From positions 1-23,256 of the forward strand of contig RBNI01001286.1 of NCBI GenBank assembly GCA_003990745.1: a DNA stretch of 23,256 nt. Reading direction: 5' to 3'. This document shows positions 2,330-23,256 of this stretch, in pieces (position 1 is the first letter of the stretch; each line of letters starts with the position of its first letter). Below the pieces are notes generated by a model. That model was not told the DNA's origin, did not search any database, and saw nothing but the letters and a program-made list of their open reading frames with translations. Made by a program: the position numbers and the translations under genes. The DNA is from Jimgerdemannia flammicorona. Lineage: Eukaryota; Mucoromycota; Endogonomycetes; Endogonales; Endogonaceae.

Positions 2330-3398
2330 TCAACTCTCTGATTCATGATGTAAGGAAAGATATATCTTGAGGCAGTTGATGTGTACTGGTGTTCTGAGAG
2401 TCTGTCTATCCATGCTTCTTAAATAGATGCTAGTTCCTCTGATGTTGTGTACAAGATAAGGTCCTTCCCATTTCGGTTCTAGTTTGGTAGCAAAGTTTAT
2501 CTTGATCATGTTTCTCCAAACTAGGACTTGATCCCCATTCTTGATCTCCTGATCCTTCTGTTTTTGGTTGTAGTACTTCTTTTGTCTTTCCTGGGCTTTG
2601 ATAATCTGTCCTTAGGCTTGATTTCATAACTGTTCTGAGGTCTCCGAGATTCTCATGGTCAGTAGTTCTGGTTCTCTTGGCATACATCATTTCAAATGGC
2701 TTTTGTTTGGTAGATGTAGCAGGTGTGTTCCGAATTTCCCATAAGATCTCAGATAAGCAGAGGTCCCAATTTGTAGGATTGACTTGGGCAAGTCCTTTCT
2801 TGATGGTTTGGTTCATTCTCTCTATCATGCCATTGGTCTGGGGGTGGTATGATGTGGTCCTTTTGAGGTGGATCTTGTGAATTTGGGCATAACTTGTGAT
2901 TATGTTGTTGATGAATTCTGTGTCTCGATTGGAAATGAGTTCTTCTGGGGGTCCATATCTGAGTGTGAGTCCATGAAGGAGGCCTACAATGGTTAAGGTA
3001 TCTGCGATTTCCATTGGGAAAGCCTCAGGCCACTTGGTCAGGTGTTCCACAAATATAAGGATGTATTTGTTTCTTCTTGGTGTAACTGGTAGAGGTCCAA
3101 CTATATCTACTCCCCATCTCTGAAAGAGGTGAGTGGGTGGGAGAATCGGTTGCAAAGGGGCTTGATAGTTCTTCTTTCCTTGGTACTTCTGACAAGTGTT
3201 ATATTTCTGGATGATGTTTCGGACTTGAGTTCTGAGGTGAGGCCAGGGTTGATACAGTTTTTGAATCTTCTCTTCTGTGCTTGTCTGTCCTTGATGGGCT
3301 CTCTGATGTTCTTTTTGGATGAGATCTTCTTGTGCCTTAATGGTCTGAGGAGCTTCCTTTAGGGTGTAGTTTCTTGGGACACCCTTCTTCTGGTTCAT
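2330..3398 (-). pseudogene. Integrase of Gypsy copy 1 (frameshifted, catalytic Asp lost)
   Basis: Retroviral-type integrase that would insert the cDNA into host DNA. Order seen: an HHCC-like zinc region (HQRAHQGQ ... YNTCQKYQ), the catalytic core with WGVDIVGPLPV, ISNRDTEF and SYHPQTNGMIERMN, then after a frame change near 2612 a C-terminal part with KKYYNQ, NGDQVLVW and KWEGPYLV, ending at the TCA-complement stop 2332-2330. Two key residues are lost by G-to-A changes: the first zinc Cys is Tyr (codon 3203-3201), and the second catalytic Asp is Asn (codon 2930-2928; the family norm is SDRGTEF). The third catalytic residue (Glu of IERMN) remains. The frame differs from RNase H, consistent with loss of one base at about 3398. 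No chromodomain is visible at the C-terminus. Confidence 0.85.
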
Positions 3399-4879
3399 TG
3401 GGGTTGGCAGGAAAGTACATCAACATTGTTGTGAGCTTTCCCTGCTTTGTGAATGATAGTGATTTTGTAATCCTGGAGGATAAGGATCCAGCAGGCTAGG
3501 ATTCCTATGAGTTCCTTGCAGTTGAATAACCATTTGAGGGCTGCATGGTCTGTGATCAGAGTGAACCTTTTTCCGATGAGGTAATGCTTAAATAGGGTGA
3601 CCGCCCATATGACTGCAAGGCATTCCAGTTTGGTGCTACTATAGTTCATCTGCTGCTGATTGGTAGCTCTGCTTGCATATGCTATCACATGGTGCTGTTG
3701 ATCAGGTCCTTCCTGGGCTAGAACTGCTCCAAGGCCATCTTTAGAGGCATCTGTATACAAGATAAATGGCTTCTGTAGATTGGGGCACACAAGGATTGGT
3801 GCTGTAGTCATGCAGTTTTTGAGTTCTCTGAAAGCTTTTTCCTGTGATTCTGTCCATTTGAATGGCACTCCTTTCTTGAGAAGGATTCGGATTGGGGCAG
3901 CGATTTGGGCAAAATCTTTGATAAACCTTCTATAGTAGGATACCAGCATCAAGAATGATAGTGTTTCCTTTGGAGTTTTGGGTACTGGCCAATTGTTAAT
4001 TTTCTTGGTTTTCTTTGAGTCTGCATGAGTTCCTTCTTTTGAAACTATGAATCCAAGGAATTCGAGTTTCTGTTTCCCAAAGTAGCATTTCTTTGCATTT
4101 AGTCTCAAGTGGTTTTTGCAGGTGAGCTTGAAGAATTCCTCTAAGTAGTGCAGGTGTTCTTCGAAATTTGCTGAATAGATGTTGGAATCATCCATGTATA
4201 CAATTAGGCAATAGTGAATCAAAGAGGCGTAGACTGAATTCATCATCCTCTGGAAGGTGGGGGGTACATTGCAAAGTCCAAAGGGCATTTGGAGGTACTT
4301 GAACAGTTTTCCTAAAGCAAGGAAGGCTGTCTTATGAATGTCCTTGGGGTCCATGGGGATCTTGTGGAATCCTGCAAAGAGGTCCATACTGCTGAAGTAT
4401 CTCGCATCTTGTAACTGATCCAAAAGGTCATCGATTCTGGGCAAAGGATAGGCATCCTTTTTGGTGACTGAATTGAGTTTTCTGTAATCCACACAGAGTC
4501 TCCATCCTCCCTTCTTTAGTACAATAAGTATAGGACTGGCCCAAGGGCTGGTAGAGGGTCGGATGACTCCATTGTCTAAGAGTTCTTGTATGTGCTCCTT
4601 TTCAAATGTTTTCAAGTGATGGGGTATTCTATAAGGTTTCTGCCAGATGGGTGTTGCACTTCCTGTATTTATGCTGTGGTGATATGATGGATTATATGGC
4701 AGGTTGCCATAATCGGTAGTGAAGATATCTTGATATTTGTTGAGAAGTTCTGCTAGTTGTTGCTGTTGTTGAGGTATCAATTCTTCTCCAATGTTGGTGG
4801 AAGGCTTCACTGTCTCCTGGGTCGCAGAGGGGCCTTTCCTTTCTTCTGGGACATTTTGCCGTTTCCTGATAGGTTTAGT
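3395..4879 (-). CDS. Reverse transcriptase and RNase H of Gypsy copy 1
   Basis: The longest intact frame of the window: uninterrupted from after a TGA at 4882-4880 to the stop at 3395. RT motifs in order: WRLCVDYRKLNSVTKKDAYPLPRIDDLL, split here as WRLCVDYRKLN and YPLPRIDDLL; SSMDLFAGFHKI (first catalytic Asp); MPFGLCNVPPTFQ; IVYMDDSNIYS (catalytic Asp pair, Tyr-Met-Asp-Asp rather than the commoner Leu); and LEFLGF. RNase H follows with FILYTDASKDGLGAVLAQ, the Glu in TKLECLAV, and FTLITDHAALKWLF. Near the end, DVLSCQP stands where Gypsy elements have DALSR; Arg to Cys fits a CpG transition. There is no ATG in the first hundred codons, so expression must come from an upstream frame. The preceding dUTPase frame is offset by -1, the same in copy 2. 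Confidence 0.9.
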   Translation of the reverse strand, partial: TKPIRKRQNVPEERKGPSATQETVKPSTNIGEELIPQQQQQLAELLNKYQDIFTTDYGNLPYNPSYHHSINTGSATPIWQKPYRIPHHLKTFEKEHIQELLDNGVIRPSTSPWASPILIVLKKGGWRLCVDYRKLNSVTKKDAYPLPRIDDLLDQLQDARYFSSMDLFAGFHKIPMDPKDIHKTAFLALGKLFKYLQMPFGLCNVPPTFQRMMNSVYASLIHYCLIVYMDDSNIYSANFEEHLHYLEEFFKLTCKNHLRLNAKKCYFGKQKLEFLGFIVSKEGTHADSKKTKKINNWPVPKTPKETLSFLMLVSYYRRFIKDFAQIAAPIRILLKKGVPFKWTESQEKAFRELKNCMTTAPILVCPNLQKPFILYTDASKDGLGAVLAQEGPDQQHHVIAYASRATNQQQMNYSSTKLECLAVIWAVTLFKHYLIGKRFTLITDHAALKWLFNCKELIGILACWILILQDYKITIIHKAGKAHNNVDVLSCQPQ

Positions 4880-4899: not shown

Positions 4900-6322
4900 T
4901 CAGTTGAGAAAAGGCACCAGATGTCCTATGATGGTTCCTTTCAGCAAGATGATGGTCTCCCAGCTTTGATTGGTTCCTCGGGAGTGTACTGGATTCATCT
5001 TGTTGGGGAATGTGTGTCCCTCTATGTCCAGGTGTGGGATATCTTCCTTGGGTTCAAAGAAGAGGTTTCTGGGCTTGGGTGGTGTAAAGATTTCGAAGGT
5101 AGTTTGTTCTCCAGGCTCCAGGATGAGATTCTTATGCAGTCTGACTGGTTGCTGATACACTTGCTGGGGAACATCCTCTTGAGGTGGTTGACTTGAAGGA
5201 AATGTACCTCCTTCCTGTCTGAACTTCCAAATCCCTTTACTTGTCTTGCTCCTTCAGTTAGTTCAGAGACTTCTTGTAGCTGTGGGGTCTTGACCTTCAT
5301 GAAGACTGCTTGGGCAATCTTCTGTCCTCTAATAATTTGGTGCCATTCTGCACTGCTGTTGTGTAAGATAACCTTGATTTCGCTTGTATATCCAGGGTCA
5401 ATAGTTCCTCCTTCTACAGTTATCCCTTGTCTGGCAAGTCCAGACCTTGAGGTCAGTTGAATATAAGCTCCTTGGGGTGGCTGCATGGCTAGTCCGGTTC
5501 TGACCATGAAGGTCTTTCCAGGCTTGATAGATTCATCCTCAAGGCTGTGAAGATCATCTTCTACATCTTCTGGGTGGGCTTTGGTCGGGGGTTTGGCTTT
5601 TGGGTGCAGCAGGACATATTGGGCAATATCCTTGCTGAGTTCAGGCTTTCCTAGGGCTGAAGCTCCACTAGCAGAGAGCCTCCAAGCTCTGAGGTTGAGG
5701 TGTTGCCATCTGGCTCCAGTAGAAGGGTCAGGTAATTAATTCCCCTTCTTCCTGTAGGGTCCAGGGCTTCCATGAAGTTGGCAGCATCTTCTGCCCATCC
5801 TTGGCAGGTAGTGTGTCTGATAAGAGCTAGGATATCCTCTCCCAAATTATAGATCTTGAGGATTCTTCTTCCTGGCTTCTTGGTCTGGCTTTTTCGAATC
5901 TGGCTCTTTCGGATCTGGCTTTGGTTATCTCCTTTCTTCAAAGTATGCACTGCAACATCATGACTGAGGTGAATTTTCTGATGTTTACAGTCCCGGCAGT
6001 CAGGGTGTCTCTCATGGTTGCAATATCCCATTGCTCGAAAATGATGTTCTTGGCTATTTATCTCTTGTTGTCTTGGAAAGCAGTACCCATCTTGATCATA
6101 AGTTGGGGGAAGGGTAGACAAGGGATATATTTCTGTTCAGGTGAAGAAGTCTTGTCCCCTAAATTGACTTTGTAACCTTGTGGTGACTTCTTGAAAGATG
6201 GTGGACTGTGCAAGAGTAGTCAGGGGTTCTGGTCTCTGGGGTCTCTGTCTTTCTTGTTGGTCCAACAGATGACACTGGTAGCAGTAGTCTCCGGGAGAGT
6301 AGAAGACCATTTGGTGGGACAT
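4900..6322 (-). pseudogene. ORF2: Cys/His-rich, dUTPase and beta-rich module of Gypsy copy 1
   Basis: Start candidates are the ATGs at 6322 and 6310. The N-terminal third has Cys/His clusters (DYCYQCHLLD; then GYCNHERHPDCRDCKH near 6010-5960) that could bind zinc, followed by a helical stretch (GEDILALIRHT ... NFMEALDPTGRRG). A dUTPase comes next (see separate entry), then a second beta-rich module (LILEPGEQTTFEIFTPP ... KGTIIGHLVPFLN) ending at TGA 4902-4900. In this copy the module is spread over three frames. Comparison with copy 2 shows a 4-base deletion near 5735 and a 1-base deletion near 5170; adding five bases makes the distance between outer parts divisible by three, so it was one frame originally. 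Copy 2 keeps it in one frame. There is also a stop at about 6137. Confidence 0.75.
5212..5578 (-). other. Retroelement-encoded dUTPase domain (copy 1)
   Basis: dUTPase hydrolyses dUTP to dUMP and pyrophosphate and keeps uracil out of newly made DNA. Motifs in order: motif 1 is degraded (EDDLHSLEDESIKPGK; copy 2 has the canonical GYDLYSLENESIKPGK), then VRTGLAMQPPQGAYIQL; motif 2 TSRSGLARQG; motif 3 EGGTIDPGYTSEIKVILHN with the catalytic-type Asp at 5399-5397; motif 4 IRGQKIAQAVF; motif 5 KGFGSSD. Length (about 120 residues) fits the trimeric family. It lies between protease and RT of the element, in its own frame relative to both because of indels in this copy. Motif 2 to motif 5 are intact here, so decay is limited to motif 1 and the flanking frame. 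Alternative reading as another beta-barrel is unlikely given motifs 2 to 5 in order. Confidence 0.9.
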
Positions 6323-6345
6323 CTTCCTAGCCAAAAAGCTTTCTC

Positions 6346-7869
6346 TTAGTGGGTTTCTTTCTTGGGAATAATGGTGATTGTACTGGGTCCTTCTTCTATA
6401 TTCCAGGGGTCATTGTCTTCAGGTGGTGTCCGGCGAGGGTCATCCCAGGGAATGAGTTCGGGGACCTCTTCTTTATTGGGTGCTTCTTGTTCAGGAACTT
6501 CTTGGTCAGAAGTTTCTTCTTCCTCCGATTATTCTTGACCCCAAATCGCTTGTACTTCTGCAGCTTTGGTTGCAGGTGTTTCTGGAACATGTCTGCATTT
6601 CTTCTACTTTCTTCTGCACTCTGGGCAGGCTGTGCCAGGCGATTTCCTTGTTCCCATAATCTTGGAGGAGTGCTCGGGACACCTGTGTCTCTTGAGGCAT
6701 GTAGGGCATCCTTTGATTTCTCCTGCAATGGCTCCAATGGTGATAGAGATGGTATTCTTGGCCCACACATTGTCTTCTGGTCTGTCATCCACCAGGTTAA
6801 TTCAGGGATTGAGTCTGGGATCATTTCCATCTTCAGATTCTTCCTCTTCTTCTGTAGTGGATTCTTCACTACTGGCATACTCTTCTTGAATGGTGACCTT
6901 CTTCTTCTTCTTTGATTGTTCATAGCTGGTTATCTTAACTCTGTACTTCTTGCCTCAGTAGTCAAACTTGAGTACTTGTTGACCAATATCAACAACTGCA
7001 TTCATTTCCTTCATCCAGTTGGTGCCATGGATTATATCATAGATGACAGCTTCTGTGACAACAGCTTTGGAAATGGAGAACTGAATGTGTCCCAGAGATA
7101 TGGTGATGTTTCATACTTCTCCAAGAGGTTGAGTTCAGGCTCCATCTGCTACTATGATGCTGAGGTTGGATGGTCCATCAATGGGCCATTGGAGGGTTTC
7201 CAAGAATCATTTGGCAATAACACAGACAGCTGCTCCTGTGTCTATAAGGATTTTCGCTTTTTGTCCTCCAATATCTCCATGTAAGTAGGTGCTGACATGT
7301 CTCTCGGCTGCTTGGACAGGGATAGAGACTGGTTCTTGCTGTGGGATTGGGACTTGGCCAGTGCTAGACCTTGTTGTTCTCAGTAATTTGTTTTGAACTC
7401 TAGCTGGTGTCAATTGCAAGAACTGCAGGAGAGGGACTTCCATCTTGGCTTCTTGAATCTTCTGCCAGGCTTCATTGTAAATGTCTCTAGGCATGGTCTT
7501 CAGAGTGTACTTCTTCTTGGGTTTCGGAGCAACAGGTTCCCATTCTTCTTGTTCCATTTCTTCATCATCTGGTGGTAACTCATTTGTTTCGGGCACAAAT
7601 AGTGAGGGAGTTTGGGGAGGTGTGTCTACCTGTTCCTCCTCATGCTCTTCATCTTCTTCCTGGATCATTCTTCTGCTGACATTTCTAGATGGCCTTCCCA
7701 CAGGTCTCTTCCTTTTCTCTGCTGAGTAGACTGTTTTTCGGGTGCTAACCTTGGTAGGGTACAAGTCTAGGTCACTGTAGTCTTCATTGTTGCTTACTTC
7801 TTCGAAATCTTCAACAGGATGGGCTTCAGTCTTCTTGTACTGAGTATCATTCTTTCGGTTCAGTGGTTC
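6346..7869 (-). pseudogene. ORF1 C-terminal half of copy 1: linker, aspartic protease, zinc-ribbon-like tail
   Basis: This is the same frame as Gag. It begins with a basic AT-hook-like motif (KRPVGRPSRN, about 7716-7681) and an acidic Pro/Glu stretch. The protease has ILIDTGAAVCVIA (active-site DTG at 7242-7234) and, further on, the IIHGTNWMKE segment expected near the end of a retropepsin. It is broken by TGA at 7209-7207 and three further stops before 6950. After the protease comes KKKKVTIQEE, then a Cys-rich patch (GCPTCLKRHRCPEH ... ACPECRRK, about 6720-6604) that resembles a zinc ribbon, and an acidic tail ending PKKETH at TAA 6348-6346. The same TAA is present in copy 2. In copy 1 the next frame is displaced; in copy 2 it continues in frame after the stop. 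Confidence 0.78.
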
Positions 7870-9322
7870 TGAGTCCCTTCAGTCACTTCTTTTATTGTCA
7901 CATTCAGTGGCATAGTGTCTGAATTGTCCACAGTGGAAGCATTGGACTTGGGCTCTGTCTCAGGTAGGGTACCTTCTTTCTTCTTACTGGTAATTCCTGT
8001 TATCTCTTGGTGAGTAACCTTGGCTCCTCTGTGATGGGTATGCTCTGTTATCCTGGTAGCTCTGATTTTTGCATATGGTGAGATTTTCTATCTATCCAAC
8101 CAATCGGTCCAACTTGGAGCTAAGGTCTTGGATTTCACTTCTGTCCTTCTTTCCCTCTTTGGCTGGCCTTCTTTCTTCAGTTCTTTCTTGTCCTTGAAGG
8201 AGTCCTTGTAGGGCTTTGACTAGGATGTCTTCCTTCTCTTCTTTTCTGTCATGATCACTCTAGGTAGTTCCTTGTCTAACATCAAAGTATCCTTGGGCTG
8301 CATCTACTTGTTTCTCGGATCTTCTGATGCCTAGGGTGCAGACATACTGAGCAATATTTGGAGGAATTCCATTCATGAAGGTAATTGGACCTATGATATC
8401 TTGGTTGGTGACATTGAACCTGGCAGAATGCATTCTCTTCTGGATTCTTGTGAAGAAGGCTCTGGGTGATTCGCCAAGATTCATCTTCATCTCCATGATG
8501 GATTCCTGAGCCTTGTGGTGAGTTTCATTTCCTGCATACTTTTCAATGAGCCAATGGACCATGGCCTCATATTCTAGCTCATCAGACATTGCTGCTTGTA
8601 TCTGTCTTGCTAGTTCTGAATCTCGGTTGGTTGCTGTTTGATGGAAAATTCCTCTGGTTGGTTCTCTGAGCTGGGCTTTGTAAATAGCGATTTTTCTTTC
8701 ATCTGAGAGGTTTCTCAAGGCTGCAATTCCTTCAATTCCATCAAGGAATTCTCTGGGGTCTTCCTCTGAGTATCCTGCAAAGGTTGGCAATGAAGTGGCC
8801 ATTTCTTCGTCACTTTCTTCTGATTCTGGTTCAGGTTTGGATTCGGATTCTGATTCACTTTCTGAGCTTCCACTGGAGATAGGGGTGCTTGGGTATCCTG
8901 AGGATAGTGTTCTGGTCCTTGGGCAGAGTGGAATAGGCCTAGGTAATCTTGTAGGGGCTACTTCTGGTTCTGTAAGGAGTTGTGGTAGGGGTTCTATTGG
9001 TGAGATTGGTGGGGCTGAGGAGGGTTGTCTGGCTGTAAAGTGTTGGGTTCTTGTGATAAGATCTTCTAGTTCTTGTGCAAGTTCTCCGAAATCTCTAGCA
9101 GGGCTGTCTGTATTGTCTGGTTGATCTGGTTAGTCTGGTTGGGGATTTCAGGCTGTACTGCCTTCTGGTTCTGGTTGGGATCCTTCTGATGCTGGGTAGT
9201 TGGCAAGTCTTGATGTGATTACTTCTCTTCCTATCCTAATGCTGGTGATAACTGGTTCTCCTGTAGTGGCAGAGGTTGGTGTTGGATCAAATGTATCCAG
9301 TTTGACTGTGGGTTCCTGTGAG
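7870..9322 (-). pseudogene. ORF1 N-terminal half of copy 1: Gag
   Basis: Gag would form the particle and bind the element RNA. The N-terminal part is rich in Pro, then in Ser/Glu (SESESESESKPEPESEESD, just before 8803). The capsid-like domain runs from FAGYSEEDPREFLDGIE through MVHWLIEKYAG and SPRAFFTRIQKRMHS to about 8270, a retrotransposon Gag domain. A single CCHC knuckle of perfect CX2CX4HX4C spacing lies at 7941-7900. I cannot fix the start: no good ATG in frame is visible after the primer-binding site. A TGA near 9146 and a TAA near 9129 (copy 2 has CAA at both), a TAG at 8262-8260 and another at about 8090 (copy 2 has CAA) break the frame. All are explained by C-to-T or G-to-A changes. 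It continues in frame into the protease half. Confidence 0.82.
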
Positions 9323-9451: not shown

Positions 9452-9720
9452 AAAAAGCAACAAAATGTTCTAGGATTTCCTGAGGTCTTTGGTGTTTAGT
9501 GGTATAATAGTCAAAGGCTGGATATCTGTGAGCGATTCTGGCAATTTCCTTATTGGGATGGTTCTCTGAGTGTAGCAGTGATTTATGTGTGAATGGGTTT
9601 CCTTCTTGGGTCAACTGGGAATGGCAGAATTTGTGTAGTGTGAGTGGTTTCCTTCTTGAGTAACGATCTCTGATTTCAGCGTAACGATCTGGCAATTTAG
9701 TGGTTCTCCTTATGTGGTTT

Positions 9721-9839
9721 CTGCATGACGATCTCTGTGTAGTGTGATGATCTCTGCATGACGATCTCTGTGTAGTGTGATGATCTCTGCATGATGATCT
9801 CTGTGTAGTGTGATGATGATCTCTGCATGACAATCTCAT
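9721..9839. repeat. 33-bp tandem repeats inside the copy 1 LTR
   Basis: Unit (plus strand) begins CTGCATGACGATCTCTGTGT and is 33 bases: 9721-9753 and 9754-9786 are identical; 9787-9822 is a 36-base variant with one extra GAT and one C-to-T; 9823-9839 is a partial fourth unit. Copy 2 has only traces of the motif (for example near 16200), so the array expanded in, or before the insertion of, copy 1. Confidence 0.9.
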
Positions 9840-10048: not shown

Positions 10049-10604
10049 TCTGAATCAGTGGACTTCTTGAAAACAGCGGCTTAACTGGGAATTAACTCGG
10101 ATATCATGAATCGGGCTCTTCCGGGAATACTACTCGGATTCTTGGCAAGTTATGTCAAAACTGGCTTCATTTGCATGAACGGGTCACTGTGAAGTTGCAT
10201 CAAGGACTGGCTTGTGGCAAGAAAGGCGGGCTCTCTGGGAATGTGGCAGAAGGGCGAAAGTCTTCAGGCTTATCTGGCAAGCGAACCAAAATGTAACAGA
10301 CTTCTCTTAAAAATAGACTCGTTCTTTGTATCGGAAAGTGGACCAGAGTGGGAAAGGGGCAAAGCTCACAATCTCCTAGTAGTGGCTGTAGAGCAGGCAT
10401 TTCTTCTAAGTATTGCAATCCAATTCCTTTAGGATCAAGTGACTTTTGGCAGGCATATCTCTCGAAGTGTAGTAGGCAGACTTGTCTTTTGCTTTGTATT
10501 TTGGAACTGAGGTTTATTCACTCTTATCTCTGGGGTAATTTATACAAGTTGGTTGCTATCCAGTTACTATGTGGCTAACTATAGATTTGCTATCTATGGC
10601 AAGT

Positions 10605-10660
10605 TGTGCAGGTCCAACACAAGTGTGCAGGTCTGGCACAGGTGTGCAGGTCCTGCATAG
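10605..10660. repeat. Palindromic tandem units in the copy 1 LTR
   Basis: Three units of 18-19 bases start at 10605, 10624 and 10643, each opening TGTGCAGGTC. The last contains TGCAGGTCCTGCA, an inverted repeat with one central base. The array sits between two TATA-like boxes, at the same place as the array in the right-hand LTR (23016-23087), but with a different sequence. Confidence 0.75.
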
Positions 10661-10806
10661 ATATATCTTATCTGGTAGTCTGGCTATTTATACAGTTTCC
10701 ACAACAATGGTTGCTGGTTACTATGCTGGGTGTTCATGTCATCTGGCTAATTTTTCGCATCATCTGGCTAAGGTATAATTCAGGTGGTACGTCCTAGTTC
10801 ATCACA

Positions 10807-11480
10807 ATATATACAATCAGGCAGTAGTGGATCAAGGGGGCATAGACTGAATTCATCATCCTCTGAAAGGTGGGGGGCGCATTGCAAAGTTCAAAGGATA
10901 TTCAGAGGTATTGAAATAGTTTTTCTAGAGCAAGAAAGGCTGTCTTTTGAATGTCTTTGGGGTCCATGAGGATCTCATGGAATTCTGCAAAGAGATCTAT
11001 ACTGCTGAAGTATCTGGCATCTTGTAACTGAATTGATTCTGGGTAAAGGATAGGTATCCTTTTTAGTGACTAAGTTGAGTTTCTGTAATCTACATAGAGT
11101 CTCCATCCTCCTTTCTCTGGTACGATAAGTATAGGGCTGGCCCAGGGGCTAGTAGAGGGTCAGATGGCTCTATTGTCTAAGAGTTCTTGAATGTACTCCT
11201 TTTCAAAGGGTTTCAAGTAGTGGGGTATTTTGTAGGATTTCTGTTAGATGGGTGTTACATTTCCTATATTTATGCTGTGGTGATATGATGGATTGTATGG
11301 CAGGTTACCATAATCAGTGGTGAAGATATCTTGATTTTTATTGAGAAGTTCTACTAGTTGTTACTATTGTTGAGGTGTCAATTCTTCTCCAATGTTAGTG
11401 GAAGGCTTCACTGTCTCCTGGGTCGCAGAGAGGCCTTTTCTTTCTTCTGAGATCTTTTGCTGTTTCCTGATAGATTTAGC
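10807..11480 (-). pseudogene. N-terminal half of RT, copy 2 (truncated, stops)
   Basis: The frame is collinear with the copy 1 RT from VKPSTNIGEEL (about 11411) through LLDN, STSPWASPILIV and the following palm segment, and ends at IVY just before the active-site Asp pair, where copy 1 begins. Stops include TAG-TAA in the Gln run (CAG CAA in copy 1), TAA near 11245 and TGA near 11160. A small deletion lies near 11028, where copy 1 has extra bases in the LLDQLQD region. The offset of this frame relative to the upstream dUTPase frame equals that in copy 1 (170 bases between matching codons in both). Confidence 0.85.
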
Positions 11481-11500: not shown

Positions 11501-12901
11501 TCAGTTGAGAAAAGGCACCAGATGTCCTCTGATGGTTCCTTTTGGCAAGATGATGGTCTCCCAACTTTGGTTGGTTGCTCAGGAGTATACTGGATTCATC
11601 TTGTCAGAGAATGTGTGTCTCTCTATATCCAGGTGTGGGATATCTTCCTTGGGTTCAAAGAAAAGATTTCTCAGGTTGGGTGGTGCAAAGATTTCGAAGA
11701 TAGTTTGTTCTCTAGGCTCCAGGATGAGATTCTTGTACAGCTTGACTGGTTGGCAGTATACTTGCAGGGGAACATTCCTTTTGAGGTAGTTGACTTGAAG
11801 GAGATGTACTTCTTTCTTGTCTGAGCTCCTGAATCCTTTGGATTGTCTTGTTCCTTCAGTTAGTTCAGAGACTTCTTGCAATTCTGGGGTCTTGATCTTC
11901 ATGAAGACTGCTTGGACAATCTTCTGTCCTCTAATGATTCAGTGCTATTCTCCACTACTGTTGTATAGAATGACCTTGATATTGCCTATATATCCTGGGT
12001 CAATAGTTCCTCCTTCTACAGTTATTCCTTGTCTGGCAAGTCCAGACCTTGAGGTCAGTTGGATGTAGGCTCCTTCAGATAGCTACATGGCTAATCTGGT
12101 TCTAATCATGAAGGTTTTTCCAGGCTTGATAGATTCATTCTCCAGACTGTAGAGATCATATCCTACATCCTCTGGGTGGGCTTTGGTCGGGGGTTTGGCC
12201 TTGGGATGCAGCAGGGCATACTGGGCAATGTCCATGCTGAGTTTGGGCAGACCTAAGGCCGAAGCTCCAATAGCAGAGAGTCTCCAAGCTCTAAGGTTGA
12301 GGTGTGGCCATCTGGCTCCAGTAGAGGGGTCTCAGAGGTAGTTAATTCCTCTGCTTCTTATGGGGTCTAGGGCTTCCATGAAGTTGGTGACATCTTCTAC
12401 CCATCCTTGGCAGATTTCATATCTGATGAGAGCTAGGATGTCTTCTCTCAAATCATAGATCTTGAAGATTCTTCTTTCTGGCTTCTTGGTCTGGCTTTTT
12501 CGGATCTGACCTCTATTGTCTCCTCTTTTCAAAGTATGGATTGCAACATCATGACTGAGATGAATCTTCTGATGTCTGCAGTCTCAGCAGTCAGGGTGTC
12601 TTCTATAGTTGCAATATCCCATTGCTTGAAAATGGTGTTTGCAGTTGTTGATCTCCTGTTCTCTTGGGAATCAGTACGCATCTTGATCATAAGTTGGTGG
12701 AAGAGTAGATAAGGGATATACTTCTGTCCAGGTGAAGAGGCCTTATTCTCTGAATCAGCTTTGCAACTTGGTAGTAACTTCTTAGAAGGTAGTTGACTAT
12801 ACAATTATATTTAGGGGTTCTGATCTCTGGGGTCTCTATCTCTCCTATTAGTCTAGTAGATGACACTGATAGCAGTAGTCTTGGGGAGAGTGGAAGACCA
12901 T
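11501..12901 (-). pseudogene. ORF2: Cys/His-rich, dUTPase and beta-rich module, copy 2
   Basis: From the ATG at 12901 (MVFHSPQDYCYQCHLLD) the frame continues without indel to the TGA at 11503-11501, interrupted only by point stops (for example after HLLD, near 12344, two near 11940, and TGA 11581-11579). dUTPase motifs: GYDLYS at 12163-12146 (canonical motif 1), then ESIKPGK, TSRSGLARQG region, DPGY with NIKVILYN, RGQKIVQAVF and KGFRSSD (third Gly changed to Arg). The dUTPase runs directly into the beta-rich module (KNLILEPREQTIFEIFAPP), which shows that they are one polypeptide. The stop at 11581-11579 is CGA in copy 1 (4980-4978), a clear CpG-to-TpG change. It ends at the same TGA as copy 1. 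Confidence 0.83.
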
Positions 12902-15937: not shown

Positions 15938-17134
15938 TGTAATATGCCCAACTTAATAGAGGTAAATTATAAGGTTAGGGGTTAATATAGTTTGGCTTGA
16001 GCCCTCAGTTACTTTGTCCAAAATGTTCTATAATTCCTGAGGTCCTTGGTGTTTAGTGGTATAATAGTCAAAGCTGGATATCTGTGAGTGATTTATATAT
16101 TGACTTCCTAATCAGGACAGTTCTCTGGATGTAGTGGTGATTTGTATGTCTTTTCTTCTTGGGTCAACTGAGAATTGATAGAAATTCGTATATTGTATGA
16201 TGATCTCTGTGGGTTCCTTATGCGATTTCTGGGTAATGATCTTGTATAGCATGATGGGTTCTTTATATGTAATGGTCTGGTAATTTAGCAGTTTTCCTTC
16301 TTGAGTGATAGGCGATCTCTGTATAGTATGACAAGCTCCAAAAGTAGATTTGGCTCACTGGGAACAATGAATAACTTGGATGTTATAGGTTCGGCTTCAA
16401 CTGGGAATACTACTCAGATAGTACAGATTCTCTTAAATTAGTAGGCTTCTGGGAAATAACTTCAGTTCTTGGTAAGTTACATCTAGACTGGCTTCGTTTG
16501 TGCAAACAGATCACTGTAAAGTTGCATCAAGAGACTGGGTTGTGGTAGGAAAGGCAGGCTCTCTGGAAATGCAGTAAATAACTTAGAAATAGTGGTGAAG
16601 TTCTTCCTTGAACTTGGCAGCAAACTTCAGGCTTAGTCTGGCAAGCATACTAATAGCGCAGCTTATTCCTTAAGTGGTGGATTCTTCAGACTTAGTCTGG
16701 CAAGCGACTAATAATTCCAAAGGCAGCAAAGTTCTTCACTCAAACTTAGTGGCAAAATCTTCAAGCTTTGTATCAGAAAGTAAACCAGAGTGGAAAGGGG
16801 ACCAATGCTCAATCTTTAGAGGCTTTTTTGATATTTGTATTTCAGACTGAGGTTTATTCACTCTTGCCTCTGGGGTAATTTATATATTGTAGTTGCTATC
16901 TGGTTACTATGTGGCTAACTATAGGTCTGCTACTTGTGGCAAGTATAGAGAGTCTGTACAGATAAACAGACTCTTTCTGGTATGTCTGGCTAATTATAAG
17001 TGTGGTAGGCTTGAGTAACTATGATATACTGGAGGTCATGTTATGCTGGAGCCTATATCATCTGGTTAAGTATGCTAATTGTTTGCATCATCTGGCTAAG
17101 TTATAATTCAGGTGGTATATTTTGGTTTGTTACA
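15938..17134 (-). repeat. 5' LTR of Gypsy copy 2 (1197 bp)
   Basis: Begins TGTAACAAAC at 17134 and ends ATTACA at 15938 on the minus strand, matching copy 1 and the right-hand LTR in both TG...CA ends and internal order. The segment equivalent to the first 390 bases of the right-hand LTR has no CpG. It has one remnant of the palindromic unit (AGTCTGTACAG near 16955) instead of three or four. The 15-mer CTTAGTCTGGCAAGC occurs twice (16632-16646 and 16691-16705), again showing internal repetition in these LTRs. The right end abuts the AT-rich block. Confidence 0.82.
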
Positions 17135-18564
17135 ATAGATATATTGTAGTATATATAGTTATGGTAGACTATGAGATTTCTACTTCATGTAAGACTAAAT
17201 ATTACTATTTCTCTCTCTTCTCAAAAGCTATATTAGTTTTTTCCTGAAACTCTATCTTAATCTATATCACTTCTCTTTTCTGCCATACTATAGATTATTA
17301 ACTTCATCAATTACATCCTTTAGACCAATAACTGAGAGACAGAAAAGAGACAAACATGAAGCACTAGAGATAGATGATCAATAGTATATAACAAATATTA
17401 TAGTTTCCTTGAGATAGTAGTAGAATGCTAAATTATTTGCAAATCTTAGTGAGCATATATATATTATTAATACAGCTGTTAACTGGTTATCCAATAGTAA
17501 TAAAAACTATAATATATATTATGTCTAGTCATATAGTCTCAAATTAGAATAGTTTATATTACTTTCTACTTAATAATCTATAGTAGTATATAGTTGGTAC
17601 ATATCTTAAAATTAATGAGTAAGAATGTACTTATTTGAATTATTGTAGAAATTTGACATTTTGTGATTTTTTGTATACATATCTAATCAATACTGTATTA
17701 CTTGTTTTGAATTTAGTTTTATCACCAATCCAGTTACTACTGTAAAAATTAGTCATTAGTAAATAAAGTAGAGTATTACTAGACTTCTTTATCTGGATAT
17801 ATAAAATTGCCTTTTAGTGATGATTAATTTCTATCAAAATTACTCTAATATAGAAAGTGACCAAATTATATCAGATGATATCACAATAATTCCATCACTA
17901 CTAATCATATTGAAGCTCAAAATCATGACCCAATCAGTCTTATTTTATTTATATACTCATATCAAATAGAATATAAAAATATAAATAGACAGAAAAATGA
18001 ATTGATCATAATTATTTCCTATTCATTTTTTGTCATTAACTTATAATATTTTCCATTGACTTACATTTTATCTTTACTTCTATACATACTTTTATTTATT
18101 ACTATACAATAAATCAAATAACTGATCACTTCTTAGATATATAGTATAATGTTATTAGTATAGTTATATCTCATATATATAGCTATAAATAAATAAGGAT
18201 TTGAGATCACATGAATAAATAGTATAATAAAAATCACAATATATATCATTAATAGGATAAAAATACTCAATTATACCCAATACTAATGAAAAAATTAATA
18301 TAAAAGTACTAGCAAATAATAGATAATAATTACAGTATTAACATATATATCTCAAACATAATAAATAGTCAGCAGTGAAATAGATAATTAATGTATAATT
18401 ATAATGAATGAGAAATTATACTTCTATCTAACCAATTATATTAATTAAAACCCAATAATAACTGACTATATAGACACCTCAGAACTATATGGATATATTG
18501 TGGTTTAAATGTATATATTTAGAAAATATAATAAAACTAGCCCTCATGCAAATAGATAAACAGA

Positions 18565-18649
18565 AGAGAGAGAGAGATAGTAAATATGAGTATATGATAT
18601 GAATATATGAGTATATGAGTAAAGAATATATATAAGTATATATAAAAGC
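18565..18649. repeat. Simple repeats (AG run and ATATGAGT-like units)
   Basis: An alternating AG run of 13 bases (18565-18577) is followed by irregular units of the type GAGTATATGA / ATATATAAGTAT up to 18649. It looks like ordinary microsatellite growth in AT-rich DNA. Confidence 0.7.
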
Positions 18650-20964
18650 AGATGTAATTAAATAATAACTAATATATGTAATATTAAAGGAGTTGTCTTC
18701 TGCTAAAATAAATTATATACACCAGCACTTAAAAAATAATTTGATCTTCTATATCTTGGTGAAATGACTTATACTCCCTACATATGTCTAAGATATTTCT
18801 ACTATCATTGACTTACAATTTCTAAGAAACTCACTCATAGAATGTACCAAGCTATATCTTTGTAAATTGAGATAAACTAAGTTAATATAAATTATTTAGA
18901 ATAGTGTTTTATCTAGGTTATTGACTATAGTTCTCAGTTAATTGATATTGATATAGAGAAGAGAGTATAACAGAATAGGATAACAATAGTGGTCATAAGG
19001 GTAGAAAGGATAGTAAAGTGGTTATTATAACAAAATATATCATATATACCTACAGTATTATTAGAAATGAACTACTATTGGGTTCTGACAGACTTTTTAG
19101 GAGTTATGAAAGTATACATAGTGTATAAATATAAAATTATTTTTAATTTAATATTTGTTTTGAATCTTCCATTCTGTGGCCTTATATTATACTCAATTCT
19201 TTACAAAATCAAAAACAAATACTTTACTATATTCTATCTATTCTATATTATATTATCTACCCAAAATTAAGTCAATATTTTAATAACCCAACTTTTATTA
19301 TTTTCTACTCAGCTGATCAATCTTACTGTAACTTTGGTATGATCACTTATATTTACATTATCCAGTAGTATATTTCCATACTTTTCCTTGATACCAGTGG
19401 GTATAGTAATAAGGAGTCTTATAACTTAGCAACCTTATAATATTGATCATATTATTAAATTCAGCTTCAGACAATCTTTGAATCAAGTTATAGTTGATTT
19501 TAGAAATTGAAAGATGAGTGATTGTATCTTCTTAAATAGTAAAAAAAAGTATAAAGAGAATATTAAACCAAAGAGAGTATGAGAATGACAAGTCAATATA
19601 TAGACATAGATATGTCTTATATTTACTCTTTTATATATAAATATTGATCAAATCACATAAATATCAATATACTTAAATATTTGTCAATACTAATAAATAC
19701 TGTAATATCACATGAGATTTGCATCTACATCTACTATCAAGGGTGGCTGTCCTTCTCTTGGACTAGCAATACATTAGTATAGATTTATGCATATTATTTA
19801 TATTAAAGCAGAATAATAATATCTGATCTCTAGTTATGTAATATATAAGAATAAGTAACCCTTGAGACCTTTGAAATCTTATAAGGCCAGACTCACTTGC
19901 AAGACTTACTTAGCTTGCTAAAATTATCATTATTAGTATTTCTGATACATCAAGAACTAAGCAGCAGTATTTTCAGATTGAGAAATACTTTAATAGACTC
20001 TGAATTCTTGAGAACTACAAGAGTACCCCAGTTATCTAGTACTCTTCATTCTTATATTATATTTGTGAAGATGTGAAGGAAAAAGTGAATAAAGAAAATA
20101 GCATATTGAAAAAGATGTTTAAACTATATTATTATTACATAATGTATTTCAGATTATAGATTTTGGAGTAAGTTTAGTTACTATTATATAATGAAGATAG
20201 TATAGAAGCTTATATTAGTGATAGTGATTTTACCAGATTCTGATAAGAATATCAAAAGAATGATCTACCCCCCTCTTCTCTGCTTATGAGAAAGAAAATT
20301 TATATATGTTAAATAAGGAGATCATAGCCTATATATTTATATCTACTAAATAAAGTTGCCAAACTTACCACTATTGAGAATTTACAGTATATAAACAATC
20401 AATAATTATTTTATAGTGATGATAGTATGGGCAATATACTTCCTATAGGCTCTTAATGAGATTGATTATCATACTTGATACTTTCTTCCCCTCTCCAATA
20501 ACCTTCACCTTCTTTATCTCTATCAAAATTACATATAGCTCCTTAATCATCATCACCATATCTCTATTTGCTCTTCTCATACAGCCTGGTACTCAGTCTA
20601 CAAATTGAATACTCTATTGTCATACAAAATCTTTGTCATACATTACATCTTCACCAGCATATTTTGAGAAAGATTTCACAGCTGAGCCCTAGGACTACCT
20701 GTAGTATATAATTAGTAATGAGAACTAAAATACTGGTGTATCTAGTAATAGTAACTAGGTCATTATATAGTTGAATCTTATAGATATAGATAGCATAGAT
20801 AAGTTTCTATTGATGTTGAGAAGAATCACCTAGTGATCAAAAAAATAAAATAAAATACTATGTCCTATATCACTACTACTAAAACCAATTATATATACTT
20901 ATACAGTGCTATGCACTGAACTTTCATTTATGATTATAGAAGAATATAACTAAATATTCAAGAG

Positions 20965-20979
20965 AAAAAAAAAAAAAAA
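20965..20979. repeat. A15 homopolymer
   Basis: Fifteen consecutive A on the plus strand. It could be the tail of an ancient retroposed copy, but the sequence to its left is not recognisable, so this is only a possibility. Confidence 0.5.
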
Positions 20980-21239
20980 TAACATATAATCTTTTCATGG
21001 CTTACATCAGAGTCCTTGAAGATTATTGATCATTATACTCAAATATGATATAAAAATATACCAGCAGAGCAGTGATATAAATTGTGATAGTAGGAAATTA
21101 AGTGTTGTACATATACTAATTGAGAGTGAGCTATACTATAACCTCTCTCATATATGTATCTGAGTATACTATATACTAATAAAGAATTTAACTTTATCAG
21201 TCTTACTTTACAGAATATGACAAAGATAGAATGAACTCT

Positions 21240-22130
21240 TGGATTCTATCATACTCATAGTCCTCTATTGTCACTAATGGTCAAGTTGGTCTTTATACAT
21301 ACTTTTATTTGACTTTAGCTTGAGTATGGCCTTTCTCTTCTATGAGCTTTCTGTCAGGCTACTACTATCAGACTTCAGGTATTGAGGTATCCCAAGTAGG
21401 TCTTTGATGATGCAATTGCTTGAGTAGTTAGATTTTCTAGCTGAGCCCTGTTTGGTAGTTTAATCCTGGACCTCTCTTCTTTCTTGTGTCATATATTGAA
21501 CCTCTACTATATATTTTAAGCCTATTTGAATTAGTGTAGTAAGTCTGACAACAACCTCATTGATCCTCTAGTAAGTGCTTTGTCATATATTCCCTAGGTT
21601 TTCTTATTGATAAGTTCTAGTTTTGGAACTCTTGGATTGACTTTCTTGACTAGTACTGAGATCTTCATCCTCTGGTCTGCAAGGCTCACTCACAATACTC
21701 CTTCCTCCAGTCCTTTCTTCAGAATCTGCTACTGTCAAATGGACTTTCTTATCTCAGGCCCTCATTCAGTATATTATGCTCCATGTTCACTTATAGTTTC
21801 AGAGAGATAATAAGATTCTCAACTTTCACCTCTGACTTGTATATTCTGTACTTACCTGGCACTATGGTTATTTTGGCCAACTTTATCTCTGTCCTTATAG
21901 AAACTAGTTTGATCATGACCATCTCTATAGGTATGATCTTCTTGATAATTTATATTCTGCTTTCTAAAGTAATTTTGATTGTGAACAACTTGACTAATTT
22001 ACTATTGATGAATGGCAGAAGGAACTTGTGCCTACTCTCTTCATGCTCTCTATGAGACTATCTATCATGCTATTGATACTATATATATTTCTGATAGTCA
22101 TCTTATAGTTGAGTTCTATATAACTGAACT
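21240..22130 (-). other. Possible decayed coding relic in the AT-rich block
   Basis: This part of the block is less AT-rich and pyrimidine-biased on the plus strand, the same bias seen over the minus-strand Gypsy genes. Minus-strand frames hold short peptide-like stretches (for example KLAKITIVPGKYRIYKSEV and NSMIDSLIESMKR) separated by many stops, with the usual TGA/TAG/TAA expected from C-to-T decay. I could not match it to a domain. It may be a relic of a transposon gene older than copy 2; weakly supported. Confidence 0.25.
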
Positions 22131-22516
22131 CATGAAGATGTTTGGATTATCAAATAATTAAACATTTTTTTTATTTCTTCTTTCTCTTTTCTATCTTAGT
22201 TAATTCCTTATTTTATTGAGAGAGTATGAGTTATATATCTCATATTAATCACTTGGTATTTAGTTGTTGATATTATTCCTATAGTTGGCACTGGGTATAT
22301 GTATACTTTATTTAGCTTCTCTTTTTTTACTTTTTACATTTTGTTATCTTTACTACTATAATGAAATGGTTTATCCAGCCTGTTTATAGAGTGCTCACTT
22401 CTCTGATATTTATTTTATTCTTCTTATCTAGTTATTTACTTCACTGACCTCATTTTGCTTCTCTCATCTTAGAAGTCTTTGCTATTTATTACTCTGATAT
22501 ATCTCTTCTCCTCAAT

Positions 22517-22592
22517 AATGAATAAATCCTTACTTGAAGCCTAACCCTAAGTCTTTACAATGAATAAACTATTACTTGAAGCCTAACCCTAA
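22517..22592. repeat. Duplicated unit with telomere-like CCTAACCCTAA
   Basis: Two 34-base units, 22517-22550 and 22559-22592, differ at three positions and are 42 bases apart. Each ends CCTAACCCTAA; the second continues with CC. This is close to the TTAGGG-type telomere repeat of most fungi but only about two units long. Confidence 0.7.
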
Positions 22593-22976
22593 CCTTAACT
22601 CATACTTAGAAAGGATACAATTAGTCAATCTTAATGATTATAAATAATACATCTGTATGTATCATCTAGCAAATAAGTTAATTTTGAAATTTTACTAATA
22701 TATGTAGCTAAATAATTTTAATTAAATATATTATTATAAATAAAATTAGGAAATTAGATAATATATCTACTATAGCTTAGATATTGATTTTATTTGTTTT
22801 TATATTTCTTTGGATTTTGTCAGAATATTTATCTTTAATATATCAATATATATTTAAAGTATAACTACTGTGACAAGCCAAGACGTACTACCTGAATCAT
22901 ATCCTAACCAGATGACGCGAACAAGATGACGTGAACACTCAGCTTAGTAACCAAGCAACCCTTGTTGCGGAAACTG

Positions 22977-22984
22977 TATAAATA
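22977..22984 (+). promoter_or_regulatory. TATA-like box 1 of the LTR
   Basis: TATAAATA, just upstream of the palindromic array. The same octamer is conserved in copy 1 (10692-10685, minus strand). Confidence 0.4.
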
Positions 22985-23015
22985 GCCAGATATACCAGAA
23001 AGGGTCTGTTTACCT

Positions 23016-23087
23016 GTACAGACTCTGTACACCGTACAGACTCTGTACACTGTACAGGTCCTGTACACCGTACAGACTCTGTACACC
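23016..23087 (+). repeat. Four palindromic 18-bp tandem units in the LTR
   Basis: Units at 23016-23033, 23034-23051, 23052-23069 and 23070-23087. Units 1 and 4 are identical (GTACAGACTCTGTACACC); unit 2 differs in the last base, unit 3 in the core (GTACAGGTCCTGTACACC). Each contains an inverted repeat, GTACAGA-C-TCTGTAC, with one central base. In unit 3 both arms changed so that symmetry is kept (GTACAGG / CCTGTAC). The array sits between two TATA-like boxes and could be a binding array for a dimeric regulator or a set of RNA hairpins. Confidence 0.93.
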
Positions 23088-23143
23088 TGCCATAATTAGC
23101 AATCTATAGTTAGCAACATAGCAACCAGGTAGCAACCAACTTG

Positions 23144-23150
23144 TATAAAT
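23144..23150 (+). promoter_or_regulatory. TATA-like box 2 of the LTR
   Basis: TATAAAT downstream of the palindromic array; conserved in copy 1 (10544-10538, minus strand). Either this box or box 1 could set the transcription start, with the array upstream as enhancer or within the 5' transcript. Confidence 0.4.
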
Positions 23151-23256
23151 TACCCCAGTGGCGAGAGTGAATAAAACCTCAGTCCGAAATACAAACACCA
23201 AAGAAGTCTCTAAAGATTGAGCATTGGTCCCCTTTCCACTCCGGTCCACTTTCCGA

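Follow-up and report, generated by a model that had tools for sequence, protein, structure and literature searches.

That fungal Ty3/Gypsy retrotransposons can carry a dUTPase, also between the protease (PR) and the reverse transcriptase (RT), is already known from reports of 2008 to 2010 (PMC2864245). The 2008 reports, which we know by citation (as cited in PMC2864245), concern Metaviridae of Phanerochaete chrysosporium and Tmt1 of Tuber melanosporum, fungal LTR retrotransposons that, like the family described here, include a dUTPase; in elements of Postia placenta the domain is found between PR and RT or at either terminus of Pol, amino or carboxy (PMC2864245). Among the latter, PosPlaTy3-5 (Novikova, 2010; PMC2864245) resembles our family as a fungal Ty3/Gypsy element with its dUTPase between PR and RT but differs in being listed among the chromodomain-bearing Gypsy elements, and the likeness is one of description rather than of sequence, linker or frames. 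The bdelloid rotifer elements Juno, Vesta and TelKA (Rodriguez, 2017; PMC5408684) also place a dUTPase between PR and RT, and Juno is described as having an extra zinc knuckle after it, although these are animal elements and the likeness of sequence and knuckle is again taken from description. Gypsy elements with a dUTPase have been described in planarians as well (PMC6431247). In betaretroviruses, the NC-dUTPase (Hizi and Herzig, 2015; PMC4531489) is a Gag-side product that is more abundant than in lentiviruses, much as we propose below, but it is a trans-frame protein between gag and pro that ends beside PR, whereas the dUTPase described here follows PR in the PR frame.

The DNA analysed here, the window, is a 23,256-nt stretch of Jimgerdemannia flammicorona (contig RBNI01001286.1, assembly GCA_003990745.1). 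The sequence comparisons support reading it as two decayed copies of one fungal Ty3/Gypsy family that appears to carry a dUTPase as a fixed trait. An RPA1 fragment also marks the host as a fungus: among solved structures it best matches two chains, named Pol I rpa1 and RPA190 and presumably from fission and baker's yeast, with two other RPA1 chains, presumably human, far behind. The preliminary description regarded the domain as uncommon in LTR retrotransposons, which was only partly right, as it has been published from fungi, rotifers and planarians and is common in this genome: in a search with the dUTPase profile PF00692, all 150 scored places were above the cut-off (5391 first-look candidates, which, like the 11,005 candidates for RVT_1 of which 150 were scored, are not gene counts).

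Anatomy of the element and its dUTPase

The features of both copies lie on the minus strand. Copy 1 begins with a 5' LTR-like repeat (10478..10814) directly next to copy 2; the match of copy 2 to copy 1 starts at 10807, within RT, and copy 2 has its own 5' LTR-like repeat at 16834..17141. Comparison of the window with itself recovered these 5' repeats but not a 3' LTR of copy 1, and showed copy 2 to be cut off inside RT; an LTR-like repeat that belongs to a third copy, in the opposite orientation, lies on the plus strand at 22859..23256. A 33-base tandem repeat (3.5 copies) occupies 9720-9837 in the 5' part of copy 1. Positions 17200-22900 are AT-rich (21-34% GC in 1-kb windows) with no open frame longer than 131 aa, and positions 249-2048 are GC-rich and strongly skewed and have open frames on the minus strand (147, 241 and 210 aa) that resemble fungal LINE-type ORF1 by look; five ORFs tested from this stretch gave no Pfam match.

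Reading downstream in copy 1, a Gag-like open frame (8263..9129), assigned by position and look and lacking a Pfam gag match, is followed by a Gag-type CCHC zinc knuckle, CFHCGQFRHYATEC (7900..7941), and by a frame for the N-terminal half of the protease (7210..7878), with DTGA at 7231-7248 and a weak Pfam match (E 0.044). Sister copies add to the case for a protease, modestly by a Pfam match in L053 (E 1.3e-4) and by ILGTNW in L042. A linker (5987..6708) then leads to the dUTPase, with Cys/His clusters at 6670-6708, 6616-6627, 6272-6319 and 5987-6022, the third of which is of the CPH type discussed below, except that its first Cys reads Ser. Beyond the dUTPase lies a segment that we call domain X (NLILEP...GHLVPFL; 4906..5130 in copy 1, 11507..11731 in copy 2), separated from it by a frame break in copy 1 but in the dUTPase frame in sister copies; modelling of domain X gave no confident structure (pLDDT 29-44). 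The RT-RNase H open frame (3398..4879; RVT_1 4.4e-31, RT_RNaseH 4.2e-37) and the integrase open frame (2433..3419; H2C2 2.6e-7, rve 3.8e-6) come next, and copy 1 has the order of PR, RT, RNase H and integrase by which Ty3/Gypsy elements (Metaviridae) are recognized. At the end of the integrase (2333..2611), the sequence WEGPYLV (2450-2470) resembles the GPY/F motif, and the C-terminal domain of MLV integrase is matched weakly (E 0.0046); searches of 2611-2333 and 2342-2052 in copy 1, a single and possibly truncated copy, returned no chromodomain match.

The minus strand of copy 1 encodes a trimeric-type dUTPase. The domain had been placed at about 5580-5200 from the letters alone, and PF00692 bears this out, matching the frame at 5507-5022 with E 4.6e-18 and a score of 65.7 bits, where the curated cut-off is 22; in one sister copy the match reaches E 6.2e-28. 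A comparison of 4900-6300 with phage records returned no match. Motifs 2 to 5 are intact and in order, as had been described (5453-5433, 5411-5388, 5330-5307 and 5237-5217), and motif 1, which had been pointed out in copy 2, is in copy 1 damaged rather than absent, being present in the same frame as EDDLHS (5561-5544). Because the frame remains open upstream beyond 5600 and continues through this damaged motif, we take the stop-free domain of copy 1 to span about 5600-5214 (5214..5600). In copy 2 (11819..12202) the canonical motif 1 reported earlier, GYDLYS, was found at 12163-12146, in a domain with three stops and an altered motif 5, KGFRSSD. At the level of the family, all five ordered motifs are present. 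The domain had also been placed between protease and RT; it does lie between DTGA (7248-7231) and the start of RT at 4879, but rather than adjoining the protease it starts about 440 aa after the last recognized protease motif, as judged on L042 and L039.

The structure prediction suggested at the outset was carried out on a natural relative, the 404-aa P0008, which is 68% identical to the frame of L057 over 81% of it. The model, built with 18 sequences, has a mean pLDDT of 56 overall, and ten-residue blocks over residues 131-250 average 85-97. Foldseek returned 248 PDB matches with E <= 0.001, and the 50 listed are all dUTPase entries, identified by title or, for 6h4c, by chain name, with target TM-scores of 0.68-0.92. 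On this relative, the dUTPase beta-fold is thus predicted for the family of the window. For P0001, a search of the PDB at 1e-25 gave no match and was redone at 1e-23.

Frame layout and a proposed way of working

In the sister copies, protease, linker, dUTPase and domain X share one frame, which has fewer stops than the other frames. In L039, this frame and that of RT, which is the -1 frame, overlap by 82 nt, and within the overlap is an in-phase GGGAAAT, an instance of the heptamer G GGA AAY that we take to be a slippery sequence of the retroviral type. P0008, P0022 and P0023 share their C-terminal end with the frame of L039. In an alignment of 31 rows (30 loci, of which window copy 1 is L036, and window copy 2), the heptamer is GGGAAA[CT] in 22 rows and AGGAAA[CT] in nine, including both window copies (AGGAAAC at 4861..4867 in copy 1). 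The overlap, as seen in L039, and the heptamer with GGG would together be suited to a -1 frameshift. The available portions of the open-licence literature (PMC2864245, PMC2774666, PMC11105155, PMC6431247, PMC5408684, PMC4531489) yielded no report of a PR-linker-dUTPase frame that overlaps RT with such a heptamer.

Given the 82-nt overlap of the shared frame with RT and the heptamer in phase, synthesis of the dUTPase may precede a -1 frameshift. Its position ahead of this likely shift would mean that its amounts are like those of Gag and not those of Pol. The reading that we consider likely for the locus as a whole is that of decayed Ty3/Gypsy copies whose Gag-side dUTPase, made ahead of the shift, would keep uracil from the cDNA. 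The capsid-side polyprotein would run from the Gag-like part through the CCHC knuckle, the protease, the Cys/His linker of about 440 aa and the trimeric-type dUTPase to domain X, with Gag presumably in the same frame as the protease and dUTPase; RT-RNase H would come next, reached in the -1 frame by frameshifting, and then the integrase. Packaged in the particle, the dUTPase would split dUTP to dUMP and pyrophosphate, and the purpose of removing dUTP might be to hold uracil out of the cDNA during reverse transcription in cells with little host dUTPase. A rival on this point is that RT has a start codon of its own or is expressed by some other route and not by a -1 frameshift from the dUTPase frame, and the nine of 31 rows without GGG in the heptamer would fit such a route; set against the 82-nt overlap, the retroviral type of the in-phase heptamer and the position of RT in the -1 frame, we think it rather unlikely.

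Conservation, selection and decay

Across the dUTPase stretch, all 31 aligned rows are free of frame indels and 17 are free of stops (one stop in eight, two in five and three in one), compared with a mean of 7.0 stops in its other two frames, which argues that the frame is not there by chance. All 31 rows keep the Arg and Ser of motif 2, the Gly, Asp and Tyr of motif 3 (the Asp presumably being the catalytic residue), the Gln of motif 4 and the Arg, Phe and Ser of motif 5, and losses are few at the Gly of motif 1 (kept in 30/31), its Asp (28/31), the Gly of motif 4 (30/31) and that of motif 5 (29/31). When copy 2 is compared with the 30 other copies over the domain, mean dN is 0.074 and mean dS 0.423, a ratio of 0.18 that indicates selection; within the family, the 435 pairs give dN 0.033, dS 0.113 and a ratio of 0.29, a figure blurred by decay.

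The dUTPase of this family is conserved and probably an enzyme. It might instead be a dUTPase by descent that now has a structural or regulatory role, for example as a trimer that aids particle assembly, and it is true that motif 4 of the family reads RGQKIAQ where aligned relatives mostly have GDRIAQ. That the residues which we take as catalytic or substrate-binding are kept in 28-31 of 31 rows, most of them in all 31, and that motif 5, the arm needed for catalysis, is kept as well, makes such a change of role improbable.

The preliminary description also held that the dUTPase was a trait of the family and not a chance capture by one copy, and here it was sound. A 2.1-kb query around the dUTPase matched at 85-100% identity in all 40 scored places of the genome, the window included (1224 first-look candidates; two places at contig ends with like scores may be one), covering essentially its full length in 36 and crossing the dUTPase in all 40, and the dN/dS of 0.18 against copy 2 points the same way. 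The capture of a host dUTPase gene or pseudogene by a single element is refuted by these 40 matching copies, as well as by the presence of the domain in both window copies, 84.5% alike across 5.4 kb, and is hardly credible even though the host must own a dUTPase that could not be picked out among the element copies: a search with a yeast query (4927 first-look candidates, 150 scored) returned two loci, both element-borne.

Copy 1 is 91.8-94.1% identical to 29 other copies, and on that ground we place it in a group younger than copy 2. Most copies are broken. The stretch from the late linker to the end of domain X is free of stops and indels in three of 31 rows, and the RT frame (L039 3016-4509) is clean in none, although L037 and window copy 1 are each open there for 494 aa. 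Most of the decay consists of C-to-T and G-to-A changes, and the share of C that reads T depends on the next base (on the two strands, 0.266/0.263 before G, 0.067/0.066 before A, 0.042/0.038 before C and 0.024/0.017 before T), an excess before G that fits deamination of methylated CpG. For copy 2, the counts by codon position over the RT stretch (0.232, 0.201, 0.297) lack a codon pattern, which we read as a consequence of copy 2 ending inside RT, and they were left unused.

Other dUTPase types and a Cys/His motif

In a tree of 54 dUTPase rows, those of this genome form five types, A1, A2, B, C and D; the tree omits P0001, P0003, P0004, P0005, P0009, P0011, P0021 and matches that cover too little of the profile, and its bootstrap had not settled. 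Type B, the family of the window, weakly joins D (87/66), and A1, A2 and C fall together with rows from yeast, Entamoeba and retroelements (96/89). Several gains of a dUTPase are likely, though not proven. Type A2, represented in the tree by L001, L004, L008 and the first element of L032, has the order Gag-CCHC-dUTPase-PR and then RT, with a dUTPase of 90-97% identity beside a protease in all 30 of L001-L030 and, in L032, a chromodomain (E 3.6e-15). In type A1 (L031, L033, L035), Gag-CCHC-dUTPase is seen in L031 and dUTPase-PR followed by RT in L033 and L035, and type D has a Gag-like part, CCHC, dUTPase and PR in L068 and RT in L067; A1, A2 and D thus have the dUTPase-PR order of betaretroviruses. 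Type C, with one long-branched row, is the second element of L032 and has a CPH motif, the dUTPase and then RT; a protease before its dUTPase (L032:6505-6768), read by eye, was rejected, there being no Pfam protease match. The two elements of L032, each with a different dUTPase, lie in the same orientation within one 8-kb stretch. That one fungal genome holds five types of dUTPase in abundant Gypsy elements, with the enzyme before or after the protease, lets one ask whether guarding cDNA against uracil aids the spread of elements in fungi, and how often elements gained a dUTPase.

All six reading frames of 68 loci, 290 kb in total, were scanned for the CPH motif as C[PN]H-x(6,16)-C-x2-C. It occurs in 20 of these loci, once each: L031 and L035 (A1), L032 (C), L067 and L068 (D) and 15 of the 30 type B loci (L036-L065), where all matches are at the same place; the scan found it neither in L033 nor in any of the 30 A2 loci (L001-L030). 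When the same bases were shuffled, the mean number of matches was 0.25 (20 mononucleotide shuffles), and this chance control favours the motif. A looser form, C-x-H-x(6,16)-C-x2-C, is found in P0007 (a B-family translation), P0010, P0019, P0020, P0021 and P0038. Four of the five types have the motif close to the dUTPase, and at least three have it between this domain and the protease, with the dUTPase first in A1 and D and the protease first in B.

The protease-first arrangement recurs in P0020, which has a CPH-type motif between protease and dUTPase and resembles the window's family in its order of PR, CPH-type clusters, dUTPase and RT, but differs in a single frame that runs through to RT, in showing no domain X by eye and in a dUTPase of another clade. 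Two partial relatives of P0020 are P0021, with Gag-CCHC, PR and the clusters, ending within the dUTPase, and P0019, which begins at the clusters. From its residues, we infer that the motif binds zinc. It is tempting to speculate that the dUTPase and this zinc-binding-like motif are a module shared by several Ty3/Gypsy families of one fungus, with the protease beyond the motif in either order and, in type B, the dUTPase ahead of the -1 frameshift in capsid-like amounts, but we put this forward tentatively, as a possibility with somewhat more against it than for it. We met no report of the motif in the available portions of the open-licence literature, which was not searched by motif, and claim no absence from print; the motif and the frame layout, neither of them met in print within those portions, are details worth a second look.

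Three further sequences place dUTPase domains in other settings. P0011, named a majanivirus dUTP diphosphatase, has three dUTPase-like stretches in tandem. In P0013 (1174 aa), a dUTPase is located before PF07727, presumably the Copia-type RT domain, and P0018 is a 762-aa ginger protein with a dUTPase domain, the remainder of which resembles a plant pararetrovirus protein by look.
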